Source of the DNA: Bryobacterales bacterium
Lineage (GTDB): Bacteria; Acidobacteriota; Terriglobia; Bryobacterales; Bryobacteraceae
NCBI GenBank assembly: GCA_947446025.1
Contig: CANFEY010000011.1
Span: 1-64,000, forward strand
Direction: 5' to 3'
DNA: 64,000 nt
Numbering within the stretch: the stretch's first letter is position 1; every line of letters begins with the position of its first letter. The position numbers were made by a program, and so were the translations under genes. Positions 13,509 through 17,099 of the stretch are shown here, in pieces. The notes beneath the pieces were generated by a model that saw nothing but the letters and a program-made list of their open reading frames with translations, was not told the DNA's origin and made no database searches.

Positions 13509-14351
13509 TTAGATGGGACTCACCTCGCGCAGGAACACCCCCAACCTTTGCGGAAACGGCGACGTCAACCTCCGCGTAGCTCGCCGCCACGCTTCCCACA
13601 CGTTGCCCACCAACACTCCCGCCAGCAAGAAATAGACCACGCCCAACCACTGGAACACAGCGTAGGCGACAACCGCGACAATCGCGCCCATCACCAATTG
13701 ATCGGGATACTTGGCGGGTGAAGTCGGCGGGTCCGTGAGAATGATGAACGCAAAGTACAGCGCCATCTGTGCGTCCGGCGCGCGGAAGATTTCAGAAACC
13801 CGCTGCGGATCTCCCAGGAACGCGGTGCCGGTATAGAGCAGGAAATGGCACCCCAGAAACGCCAACACCAGCGGCATTTTGTTCACCCGGTCTGTGATGA
13901 ACACACCGGTGAGCAACAGCGCTGCCTGTAGCCACATCGGCTGGACTTCCGGCAGCGCACCCCACCAACTCTGCCCCATGTGGAACACGTAGAACATAAC
14001 GACTATGGCCAGCGCCGCGGGATTGAATACGTTCGCGGTCTTCGTGCGGAACAGATACTTGCTGAGCACCGCCACCACCGAAGTCACCGTGGGCACATAC
14101 CAAGGCTCCTGCGCGCGCACCACCATGGTGACGATCATCGCCGTCAGCACCGCGCCGCTGGGAAACTCCCACACGTTCTTTCGATAGCGAAGAATAAGCA
14201 GGTCCACGATCCCCGCAGCCAGCGCCGCGGTGCCCATGCCTACAACCACCGTCCGCACGCCTTCGCCCGGAGCCGCGATCGCAGCCAGGATCAGCAGGAT
14301 GATGGTCACCAATCCCTTGGGAGTCTTGAAAAAACTCTTCACCTTACGCAT
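13509..14351 (-). CDS. RnfD/NqrB-family membrane protein (short form)
   Basis: A 280-residue polytopic protein of the NQR2/RnfD/RnfE family, which carries electrons from flavins across or along the membrane. Family signs are PSGAVLTAMIVTMVV, NPAALAIVVMF and LTDPPTSP. It is shorter than typical RnfD (about 350 aa). I find no (S/T)GAT-like site for covalent FMN, so the flavinylated loop may be missing. Its ATG overlaps the apbE stop by 8 nt, placing it in one operon with the flavin transferase and an FMN-binding protein. Confidence 0.85.
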   Translation of the reverse strand: MRKVKSFFKTPKGLVTIILLILAAIAAPGEGVRTVVVGMGTAALAAGIVDLLILRYRKNVWEFPSGAVLTAMIVTMVVRAQEPWYVPTVTSVVAVLSKYLFRTKTANVFNPAALAIVVMFYVFHMGQSWWGALPEVQPMWLQAALLLTGVFITDRVNKMPLVLAFLGCHFLLYTGTAFLGDPQRVSEIFRAPDAQMALYFAFIILTDPPTSPAKYPDQLVMGAIVAVVAYAVFQWLGVVYFLLAGVLVGNVWEAWRRATRRLTSPFPQRLGVFLREVSPI

Positions 14352-15192
14352 GACGGAGGCCTCGCGTCTCGAAGCATTCCAACTCCGGCGTCACAATCAA
14401 CCCTTCCACACCCATTCGCGTCAGGAAAGAAACCCCTTCGTCCGGACCCATGACGAACGCCGCGGTGGCCAGCGCGTCGGCCAGCATCGCTCCACTGGCG
14501 ACCACTGTCGCGCTCGCGACGGAGCCTGCCACTCCGCCTGCGCGCGGATTGAGGATGTGCCGCCCGCGCTCGTAGTCGCCCGAAGTACACACCGCCTGAT
14601 TCGAAACCCGCAGGCGCGCGATCAACTCACCATCCATGCGCGGGTGGCGGATACCGATGGCCCACGGCTCACCGTGCGGATTACATCCGCCCAGGTAAAG
14701 ATCCCCGCCCGCGTCAATTGCGAAATCGCCGAACGGCTGCAGTTCCCGCGCGGCGGCGTCGACGGCGAGGCCCTTGGCCACCGCCCCCAGGTCAAGCGTC
14801 AGCGGGCGGCGCAGGCGAATGGTGTGCATCGCCGCATCCAGATCGACGTCATGGTAACTGACATCGTCGTCGGCGTCCGGAGAATCAGCGACCGTCCCCG
14901 TTCGATGCTCCCGGTTGAAACCACGCGCTGCCATTCGATGACCCACCGTCGGATCAAACGCCCCACCGCTCTCCTCCGCCACCATCAGCGCGAAACGCAC
15001 CGCCTCGAACAGCATAGGCGTAGCAGGCTTGGCGTCCCCAGGAGCAAGCCGCATCAATTCGCTTGCAGGGTCAAAGCGGGAGCAGCAAGACTCCACCTCA
15101 TGGAACCACGCGAAGGACCGGGCGAGCACTTCCTCGGGCGCTGACACTTCAATGGTGATGCGCGTTCCCATGACCACTTCCGTGCGCGTCAC
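14344..15192 (-). CDS. apbE: ApbE, FAD:protein FMN transferase
   Basis: ApbE attaches FMN covalently to Thr/Ser of extracytoplasmic electron-transfer proteins. The start is GTG 15192, overlapping the upstream stop (GTGA), giving 282 residues. Motifs: VVMGTRITIEV, FHEVESCCSRFDPASEL, DPTVG, LDLGAVAKGLAVD, DAGGDLYLGG and the metal-binding end region ASGAMLADALATAAFVMG. There is no obvious signal peptide from this start, although most ApbE act outside the membrane. The likely substrate is the FMN-binding protein encoded immediately upstream. Confidence 0.92.
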   Translation of the reverse strand: MTRTEVVMGTRITIEVSAPEEVLARSFAWFHEVESCCSRFDPASELMRLAPGDAKPATPMLFEAVRFALMVAEESGGAFDPTVGHRMAARGFNREHRTGTVADSPDADDDVSYHDVDLDAAMHTIRLRRPLTLDLGAVAKGLAVDAAARELQPFGDFAIDAGGDLYLGGCNPHGEPWAIGIRHPRMDGELIARLRVSNQAVCTSGDYERGRHILNPRAGGVAGSVASATVVASGAMLADALATAAFVMGPDEGVSFLTRMGVEGLIVTPELECFETRGLRHA

Positions 15193-15875
15193 TTGGGAAG
15201 GGCAGCCTTGTTGAGCGCATCCACCACGGCGTAGTAGAACGCGTTGGCGCTCTCGGTGGCGCGCGATACGTAGTCCACGTCCGCGTTCTGGCGCGCCGCA
15301 ACCTGGGGTGGCAGCATGTCGATCACGTCGCAGGAATAGCGCGTCAGGCACTGCGCGATGGTCGCGCCCTGGATGCGGCCTCCGTCGATCACCACCGCAG
15401 CTTGAATATCGCCATGCCGGGAGGTGCCCCATCCGGTGTAGGTGCCATCCTTCCATTTGGGTGCTGGCGGAGGCGGCGGAGGAGGAGGCGGCGGCGGGGG
15501 CGGAGCCGGGGTAACAGATGGCACTGGAGCAACCGGCGTCTCGACTGGAGTCTCAACCGGCACCACAACTTCCTGAATTGGAGCCCCGGCGTCTTCCCCT
15601 GAAGGCGGCGTTACAGCGGCCTGCTCCTGCTCAATCATTCGGGCAGTTGCCGGGGCGGCCACGCGCGAACTCGTCTGCACCGCCTCAACTTCAACCGGCG
15701 CACTTTGCCGCGCCTGACCCGGAGCCGCCGGACGACGCTCCGCCGACTGCGCCTCAAACTGGCTCGCCGCCGCCCGCGTACGGGAATACCCCGCGGAGTA
15801 CACCGCGAGCACCGCCGCGCAGCTTACCGCAACCAGGCCATTGGCGACTTTCTTATCCGACCCGCCTTTGCTCAT
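15189..15875 (-). CDS. FMN-binding domain protein with proline-rich stalk
   Basis: A 228-residue protein with a membrane anchor near the N-terminus (VANGLVAVSCAAVLAVYSAGY region). A long Pro/Ala/Val linker including about 15 consecutive prolines (residues 124-138) precedes the FMN_bind domain. That domain shows WKDGTYTGWGTSRHGDIQAA, SCDVIDMLP and the flavin-attachment region VDYVSRATESANAF, where the Thr in SRAT is the likely FMN site (consensus SGAT). The stalk would hold the flavin domain in the periplasm. It is first in an overlapping operon with apbE and the RnfD-like gene. Confidence 0.9.
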   Translation of the reverse strand: MSKGGSDKKVANGLVAVSCAAVLAVYSAGYSRTRAAASQFEAQSAERRPAAPGQARQSAPVEVEAVQTSSRVAAPATARMIEQEQAAVTPPSGEDAGAPIQEVVVPVETPVETPVAPVPSVTPAPPPPPPPPPPPPPAPKWKDGTYTGWGTSRHGDIQAAVVIDGGRIQGATIAQCLTRYSCDVIDMLPPQVAARQNADVDYVSRATESANAFYYAVVDALNKAALPK

Positions 15876-16037
15876 GTCTTATCAATTGTAAGCGCAGAAG
15901 CTGCACCCTTGCTGGACCGAATGTACGGAATAGTGCCAACCAGCGTACCCACCCGGTAGTTCCAGAGAATTGGGTACTGAATGCCCATTCCTCCTATCCA
16001 GGCGCAGCTTTAAGATCGCCTTGGAGGCAGTACGAGT

Positions 16038-16214
16038 ATGAAAAAACTTCTGTTCGGAACGCTGTTCTTAGGTCTGAGCACGATGACGTTCGCGCGGGGT
16101 ACGCGCCACGGGTACGGAGACAAGCCAGTGTATTCGATGCCGGAACCGGGTGGGATCATCGAGCTAGGGGCATGCGCGGTGGGACTTACCGTTTGGGCAC
16201 GGCGCAGCCGGTAG
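16038..16214 (+). CDS. Miniature PEP-CTERM protein (58 aa), likely exosortase target
   Basis: ATG 16038 has GGAGG 10 nt upstream. A signal peptide (KKLLFGTLFLGLSTMTFA) is followed by only about 15 residues (RGTRHGYGDKPVYSM). Then come a PEP motif (MPEPGG), a hydrophobic segment (IIELGACAVGLTVWA) and a basic tail (RRSR). This is the complete tripartite PEP-CTERM sorting signal with almost no protein in front of it. The exosortase gene begins 30 nt downstream, so this is probably its dedicated substrate. After both cleavages a peptide of roughly 15-18 residues would remain. Confidence 0.8.
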   Translation: MKKLLFGTLFLGLSTMTFARGTRHGYGDKPVYSMPEPGGIIELGACAVGLTVWARRSR

Positions 16215-16244
16215 AAACACGCGGCCCGTAGAGACACGAGGAAG

Positions 16245-17099
16245 ATGAACCGCCGCCACCAAATCGCGCTTGGACTCTGGGTCGCCTCCCTGGCGGTCTT
16301 CGGAGGGGCCCTATCGCGGCTGGTGGCGTTGGCCTTACAGGACACGCGTTACGCGCACATCCTGCTGGTTCCCTTCATCAGTGCGTTTCTGGTGCGATTG
16401 CGCAAGCAGGAGATTCTGAGCCAAGCCCGCTATGATCCCCGCGCAGGAGCGCTAGTGGCAGTTGCCGGGCTAGGAGGCCTCGCGGCAGGGTTCCCCAACG
16501 CGGGCATGCTCACGGCGTGGATTGGAACCGCTGTTGCATGCTACGGCCTGCGGACCCTAAAGGCAGCAGCGTTTCCGGCAGCGTTTCTCGCGCTCTGCAT
16601 CCCGCCGCCGAGTGGCGCAATGGATCAACTGGTCGTCTTCCTGCAAAAGGCATCCGCCGACACCACCGCCGGTCTGCTTGACCTTACCGGCATCGCTTTC
16701 CAGCGCGAAGAATTCCGCTTTTCGCTGAATACTGTTGTGATTGAAGTAGCAGAGGAGTGTAGCGGAGTCCGCTCCTTCATGTCGATGCTGATAAGCGCCA
16801 TCCTCGCCGCCCACCTGCTCCTGCGCAACGGCTGGAACCAGGTTGGATTCGCCTTGCTGGCCATCCCCGTGGTGATCTTGAAGAATGCGGTGCGCATCAC
16901 CGGCATCACCTGGCTGGGCGTAAACGTCGACCAGGGATTCTTCACCGGCGAGTTGCACCGCTACAGCGGCATACCGTTTTCGCTTGTGGCGGTGGGTATC
17001 CTTGTACCCGTGCTCCTGGCCCTGCGCAAACTGGAACGCGCCCCGCTAAAAATCGACGCCCTGGGCGTCCGCCACGATCAGGTCGTGGTAAACCGGTAA
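16245..17099 (+). CDS. Exosortase (EpsH/Xrt family)
   Basis: A 284-residue polytopic transpeptidase-like enzyme that processes PEP-CTERM proteins at the membrane. The catalytic triad is in place: C172 in AEECSGVRSFMS, R217 in NAVRITG and H238 in ELHRYSG. It is close to the size of the core domain alone; no EpsI-like domain is fused. GAGGAAG precedes ATG 16245. The only PEP-CTERM protein seen in the window is the 58-residue gene immediately upstream. The last 54 nt overlap the 3' end of the opposite-strand hydrolase gene. Subtype not assigned. Confidence 0.93.
   Translation: MNRRHQIALGLWVASLAVFGGALSRLVALALQDTRYAHILLVPFISAFLVRLRKQEILSQARYDPRAGALVAVAGLGGLAAGFPNAGMLTAWIGTAVACYGLRTLKAAAFPAAFLALCIPPPSGAMDQLVVFLQKASADTTAGLLDLTGIAFQREEFRFSLNTVVIEVAEECSGVRSFMSMLISAILAAHLLLRNGWNQVGFALLAIPVVILKNAVRITGITWLGVNVDQGFFTGELHRYSGIPFSLVAVGILVPVLLALRKLERAPLKIDALGVRHDQVVVNR

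Follow-up and report, generated by a model that had tools for sequence, protein, structure and literature searches.

What could an exosortase be doing next to a gene whose product seems to consist of little else than sorting signals? This question is raised by a gene pair in a 64,000-nucleotide stretch of a Bryobacterales genome (positions 1 to 64,000 of contig CANFEY010000011.1, here called the window). The genome assembly (G000; 120 contigs with a total of 4.43 Mb, completeness 99.88%) was compared with related genomes, which are drafts and probably metagenome assemblies. The initial annotation had described the small gene directly 5' of the exosortase as encoding signals and about 15 residues only, and had proposed that its product is a dedicated target of the enzyme, from which an exported peptide could be made, or alternatively a chaperone or decoy for it.

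A microprotein built from sorting signals

The open reading frame and its layout are as claimed (Table 1). By inspection and a hydropathy filter, the 58-aa product has the PEP-CTERM layout, in which a signal peptide is followed by PEP, a hydrophobic segment, and a basic C-terminal end. Signal peptides and helices were assigned throughout by simple rules (a cleavage rule and the hydropathy filter). The gene ends 30 bp before the exosortase start, and GGAGGCAGTAC at its ribosome-binding-site-like region is common to the window and G014, a genome of the same genus. Over the whole microprotein, codon positions 1, 2, and 3 are identical between the window and G014 in 35, 41, and 24 of the 58 aligned codons. 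In the C-terminal part 16 of 26 residues are identical (codon positions 20, 21, and 10 of 26) and the signal peptide gives 9, 16, and 8 of 19, while the middle shares only 3 of 13 residues (codon positions 6, 4, and 6 of 13). This pattern, taken from one species pair, indicates a translated protein whose ends, but not its middle, are under selection.

A filter for short open reading frames that begin like a signal peptide and end in a PEP-type tail delivered 26 distinct candidates, two of which are doubtful, and 0, 0, and 0 candidates on three simulated first-order Markov sets (1.29 Mb). The doubtful two are an 84-aa frame without other support (L214) and a start inside a longer PEP-CTERM protein (L120). 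According to the simple cleavage rule, the six microproteins compared carry 15, 20, 22, 15, 6, and 3 residues before PEP, the shortest of these stubs (3 and 6 residues) being those of G081 and G020; for G344 the true length is probably nearer 17 than the rule-derived 22. The stubs of the window and G014 are both basic, with net charges of +2 and +3. In the microproteins of G344 (L209, C114) and G020 (L178, C49, 11658-11846), which belong to two genera, PCAT-x-x-C stands directly before PEP and perhaps forms a disulfide. Two sub-threshold matches of the microprotein, to quorum_NprX (12.4 bits against a cut-off of 75) and to a colicin S4 translocation domain (13.5 against 27), were regarded as chance.

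Table 1. Features of the gene pair, in window coordinates
Feature	Position	Strand	Evidence
Ribosome-binding-site-like GGAGG, 5' of the microprotein	16023..16027	+	sequence
PEP-tailed microprotein, 58 aa	16038..16214	+	G014 homolog, 52% identity, E 2.1e-7
Signal peptide, residues 1-19, predicted cleavage after TFA	16038..16094	+	simple rule
Middle segment RGTRHGYGDKPVYSM, unconserved	16095..16139	+	window vs G014 comparison, cleavage rule
PEP motif, residues 35-37	16140..16148	+	sequence
Glu42, +5 after PEP, inside the hydrophobic segment	16161..16163	+	sequence
Basic end RRSR	16200..16211	+	sequence
Exosortase, 284 aa	16245..17099	+	PF09721, generic TIGR02602
Cys172, expected nucleophile	16758..16760	+	33/33 clade members, 6/6 housekeeping-type
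Lys213-Asn214-x-x-Arg217	16881..16895	+	Lys213 clade-typical; Asn214, Arg217 invariant
His238 (invariant) and Arg239 (basic in 32/33 clade members)	16956..16961	+	alignment

The paired exosortase and its surroundings

The enzyme matches PF09721 with 141.9 bits (cut-off 25.7, E 3e-41) and the generic exosortase model TIGR02602 with 109.4 bits (cut-off 105.55). For EpsH, the motifs C-x-G, N-x-x-R, and H-x-x-x-G have been published (PMC1569441). All three are intact in the window enzyme as C172-S-G174, N214-A-V-R217, and H238-R-Y-S-G242, which bears out the earlier statement that Cys172, Arg217, and His238 are kept. In a tree of 39 exosortases, 33 that include the window enzyme (here called the clade) are split from six housekeeping-type enzymes (100/100), and the window enzyme groups with G014a and G014b (98/100); G020 and G344a remain unplaced. 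Two positions that adjoin the invariant residues differ between these lineages. Position 213, next to Asn214, is Lys in 28, Arg in one, and Thr in four of the 33 clade members and Ala in 6/6 housekeeping-type enzymes, and position 239, next to His238, is Arg, Lys, or His in 32/33 of the clade and Glu or Ser in 6/6 of the others. Lys213 and the basic residue 239 may perhaps read an acidic residue of the substrate helix (see below), a suggestion drawn from a contrast between two lineages and not from a covariation test; the difference may reflect mere ancestry. No relative in the PDB was found by a sequence search at E<=1.

Left of the pair, genes for FMN_bind, ApbE, and RnfD-like proteins run divergently (13509-15875, minus strand) and look like an extracytoplasmic flavin-transfer unit. 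To the right, a convergent alpha/beta hydrolase gene overlaps the exosortase gene by 54 bp. No exopolysaccharide-type gene was found among the six window genes searched against protein families (the pair and four other neighbors).

Elsewhere in G000, one further match to the window exosortase was detected (C23:44042-44770), giving two in total, and at least one exosortase match occurs in 21 of the 22 other genomes of the genus that were searched, mostly low-scoring like that on C23. The C23 gene contains an in-frame TAG (L097, 10141-10143) where its G014 counterpart has Tyr, and it is followed 3' by an open reading frame of 215 aa that we read as EpsI-like. PF07589 gave 18 matches above its cut-off in G000; these ordinary PEP-CTERM proteins are probably substrates of the second exosortase. 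Many other full-length targets would, according to the initial annotation, count against its proposal, and the 18 do so in part, though the genome has the second exosortase for them, if in a TAG-interrupted frame. On contig C58 (L099), a longer Gly/Ser-rich protein carries the same acidic tail as the microprotein and has an in-frame TAG shortly after its signal peptide. Amber recoding was considered for these two TAG codons and set aside because TAG is a common stop here, ending 14 of the 36 long open reading frames taken as genes in the window; each may be either a nonsense change or an assembly error.

Occurrence of the pair in related genomes

An exosortase search of 237 genomes of the family gave 24 genomes with a match at E<=1e-30. 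In total 33 loci were inspected, 30 from the family listing and three from other families of the class, with flanks of about 10 kb per side at most and much less at contig ends, since several contigs end within 2 kb. A same-tail microprotein immediately precedes the exosortase, on its strand, in 3/33 loci, namely in the window (58 aa, gap of 30 bp), in G014 (C59; 66 aa, 30 bp), and in G344 of another genus of the family (C114; 68 aa, 24 bp). The operon-like gene pair thus recurs in G014 and G344, 30 of the 33 related exosortases have no such frame directly upstream, and the conservation looked for by the initial annotation holds to this extent only. In G020 and G081, the microproteins are encoded about 50 kb from the exosortase and on another contig, respectively.

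Searches with the microprotein itself gave a similarly narrow distribution. A search with one sequence at E<=0.01 picked up 10 of the 399 genomes of the class, and besides G000 only G014 reached better than 1e-3. A six-row HMM matched three of 396 genomes of the phylum at E<=1e-5 (G000, G014, and one 272-aa frame with a stop), and a scan of the GTDB contig collection matched only the two contigs of G014. The number of candidates scored per genome was capped at 26 for the family and at 16 for the phylum, which means that HMM matches may have been missed. Because the HMMs A2 and A3 necessarily pick up the rows they were trained on, their informative part is the gap to the next match (1.7e-18 or better against 4.7e-5 for A2, and 8.0e-21 or better against 1.3e-8 for A3). 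Any statistics on the co-occurrence of microprotein and exosortase would be biased, because G020, G081, and G344 came from genomes picked for their exosortase. The arrangement is rare, though it does recur. That two relatives carry a comparable pair suggests a private, small-scale system of delivery with hardly more cargo than a short peptide stub.

The microprotein and the exosortase start share one reading frame in all three pairs (window, 16212-16245; L184, 444-477; L209), and a fusion by read-through of the TAG in the window was considered. It was dropped, as the corresponding stops are TAA TAG in G014 and TAA in G344, and the in-frame spacing is no strong evidence for read-through. AlphaFold2 on the read-through fusion, with three alignment rows, gave an uninformative model (mean pLDDT 41).

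An acidic residue in the sorting helix

Neither the Pfam nor the NCBIfam search of the microprotein gave a PEP-CTERM family, the only matches being unrelated and below threshold (NCBIfam up to E 10), and its tail was absent from the 24 matches of PF07589 at E<=10 over the whole G000 genome. The tail differs from recognized PEP-CTERM tails by a Glu or Asp inside the hydrophobic segment. It stands exactly at +5 after PEP in seven tails, namely those of the window, G014, and G344, two of G020, and those of G081 and the G000 protein on C58; a 60-aa protein of G470 has Asp at +4. Furthermore, the +5 acidic tail is found on a 164-aa protein 3' of the second clade exosortase of G014, which shows the same tail in use on larger proteins, as would be expected of a sorting signal. 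The pattern [YF]x[M/T]PEPx4EL, searched in 10 genomes, occurred twice in G000, once in G014, once in G098, and not in the other seven, and its backward control gave 0. The G098 match was dismissed as chance, having no hydrophobic segment 3' of it, and the pattern misses the 164-aa protein of G014 because some Thr codons were not covered.

Ordinary tails were collected from six genomes of the genus, where 48 PF07589 loci (the 18 of G000 above the cut-off and the 30 best-scoring of the five others) yielded 44 readable tails after four loci without one had been removed. Asp or Glu between +2 and +16 was found in 0/44; two tails had been flagged, of which one was a register error (PTPEP) and the other has Asp at +17. 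For comparison, there are 15 larger PEP-type proteins with a link to a clade exosortase, either close by (thirteen, within about 10 kb) or, for two of G020, about 50 kb away on the same contig. Their helix contains Asp or Glu in 9/15 and Asp, Glu, or Asn in 12/15 (exactly at +9 in nine), and none of these residues in 3/15. As Asn was not counted in the 44 ordinary tails, like is compared with like only for Asp and Glu, for which Fisher's test of 9/15 against 0/44 gives 4e-7, a figure not to be taken at face value because the proteins are related. Positions +5 and +9 would share one helix face. A microprotein tail unlike the ordinary PEP-CTERM tails of its genome fits a dedicated pairing with the exosortase. 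Together with an operon-like gene pair that is real and recurs in G014 and G344, it upholds this part of the initial annotation.

Relation to known systems

Several known systems resemble the pair in part. No specific NCBIfam exosortase type was reached by the window enzyme; the best specific model is XrtA (TIGR03109), for which it scores 141.1 bits and thus remains below the 208 bits of that subtype. The clade relatives in G020 and G036 adjoin genes like that of PrsT (TIGR02917), as in the XrtA system, and G020 also adjoins XrtA-system chain-length and tyrosine-kinase-like genes. The window substrate differs in being only 58 aa long and in the acidic residue of its helix. Its tail has the PEP, hydrophobic segment, and basic end of the PEP-CTERM domain, yet with Glu at +5 it is recognized by neither TIGR02595 nor PF07589.

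VPEID-CTERM proteins (TIGR04161) pair with XrtE. A short, near-empty, exosortase-adjacent protein reminiscent of them is encoded in G344 (C74, L223; 57 aa) about 150 bp after the second clade exosortase and reaches 26.4 bits with TIGR04161 (cut-off 33). The window protein, on the other hand, carries PEP and has no match to TIGR04161 at E<=10. VPEID-CTERM had 0 occurrences in the 40 listed of 122 matching papers in the PMC literature. Among the PMC titles and abstract openings listed, none concerned cargo-free PEP-CTERM microproteins or an acidic residue in the sorting helix; Haft 2012 may treat short targets.

A likeness in architecture is found within the family itself, where eight genomes gave HMM matches to short proteins whose PEP tails are of the ordinary kind. 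They are 51-64 aa long with 6 to about 17 residues before PEP, and they share with the window protein the signal peptide, PEP, helix, and basic end. The earlier statement that normal PEP-CTERM targets are large is therefore too strong. Unlike the window protein, they have no acidic residue in the helix and occur in three genomes as tandem arrays of six (G487 C31, L257, 9708-10887), four (G393 C92, L258, from 7357), and three (G537 C63, L265); single copies are found in G540 (C389, L263), G515, G516, G519, and G459. A further difference is that in four of the eight genomes (the three arrays and G540) the next same-strand gene is PMT_2-like and encodes a membrane protein with the motif NE(A/G)WFxSPAxN, which is absent from the available stretches of G515, G516, G519, and G459. 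The PMT_2 cut-off was narrowly passed by two of the three such proteins searched (26.9 and 26.2 against 26.1), and the third had no Pfam match; the product is a putative membrane glycosyltransferase. In G393, this gene is cut by the contig end.

A proposed function and its alternatives

We propose, with slightly better than even confidence, that the pair consists of an orphan exosortase and a dedicated, nearly cargo-free substrate with its own sorting code. The signal peptide would export the 58-aa protein, which the C-terminal helix would hold in the membrane, and signal peptidase and the paired exosortase would trim its two ends. By analogy with the published EpsH model (PMC1569441), whose general steps are those proposed here, the exosortase would act through Cys172 at the PEP motif, and the stub of about 15 residues would be released or transferred to an acceptor in the envelope. 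Judged from the contrast on both sides, the substrate may be recognized through its +5 acidic residue, perhaps by Lys213 and the basic residue 239. The codon pattern of the one species pair and the varying length of the segment indicate that selection preserves the signal for delivery rather than any particular peptide.

The same observations leave some room for other functions. The microprotein might be a small membrane partner of the exosortase (an assembly factor, placeholder, or inhibitor) whose helix and PEP fill the active site, which would account for the conserved ends around an unconstrained middle and for tightly coupled genes in three loci. Stubs as short as those of G081 and G020 likewise give room for a partner or decoy, and there is a precedent for an exosortase-linked partner in the shared phenotype of xrtF and FJOH_RS07530 in Flavobacterium johnsoniae (PMC10936215). 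A partner would hardly be expected, however, to lend its tail to a 164-aa protein adjoining an exosortase, nor to occur twice in G020 far from the enzyme, and such a gene is missing immediately before most clade exosortases; we consider this role rather unlikely. Less probable still is the release of a specific bioactive peptide (a signal, an antimicrobial, or a matrix peptide). The basic charge of the window and G014 stubs and the PCAT-x-x-C common to G344 and G020 would suit such a product, but an unconserved middle between the two closest species and a pre-PEP length from 3 to about 20 in the six microproteins argue against any one specific peptide, and no receptor, immunity, or transporter gene was recognized among the four other neighboring genes searched. 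The exported signal or antimicrobial peptide of the initial annotation is accordingly not borne out. As for a decaying ordinary PEP-CTERM target that has lost its ectodomain, the 164-aa protein at the second clade exosortase of G014 shows that larger targets with this tail exist, and the other same-tail target of G000, on C58, is itself interrupted; the similarly small forms in G014 and G344 and the coding constraint on both ends nevertheless make decay very improbable.

It is also conceivable, if only as a long shot, that the stubs are linkers and not cargo. The exosortase would join the new C-terminus to a lipid and the residues would carry a glycan, resulting in a glycan-peptide-lipid anchor for an envelope polymer, of which the arrays next to the PMT_2-like gene would be the common version and the window pair a private version with an acidic code. 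In two species, PEP-CTERM proteins help to hold exopolysaccharide to the cells, as summarized in PMC12188702, which may or may not bear on a near-empty substrate.

Implications

Exosortase chemistry and substrate choice have been little tested, and one enzyme with one substrate of 58 aa is about the smallest possible exosortase test system. The charge pattern moreover suggests a way in which a cell with two exosortases could keep their substrates apart. Finally, near-empty substrates raise the question of whether what matters is in some cases the product of sorting rather than a protein attached to it.
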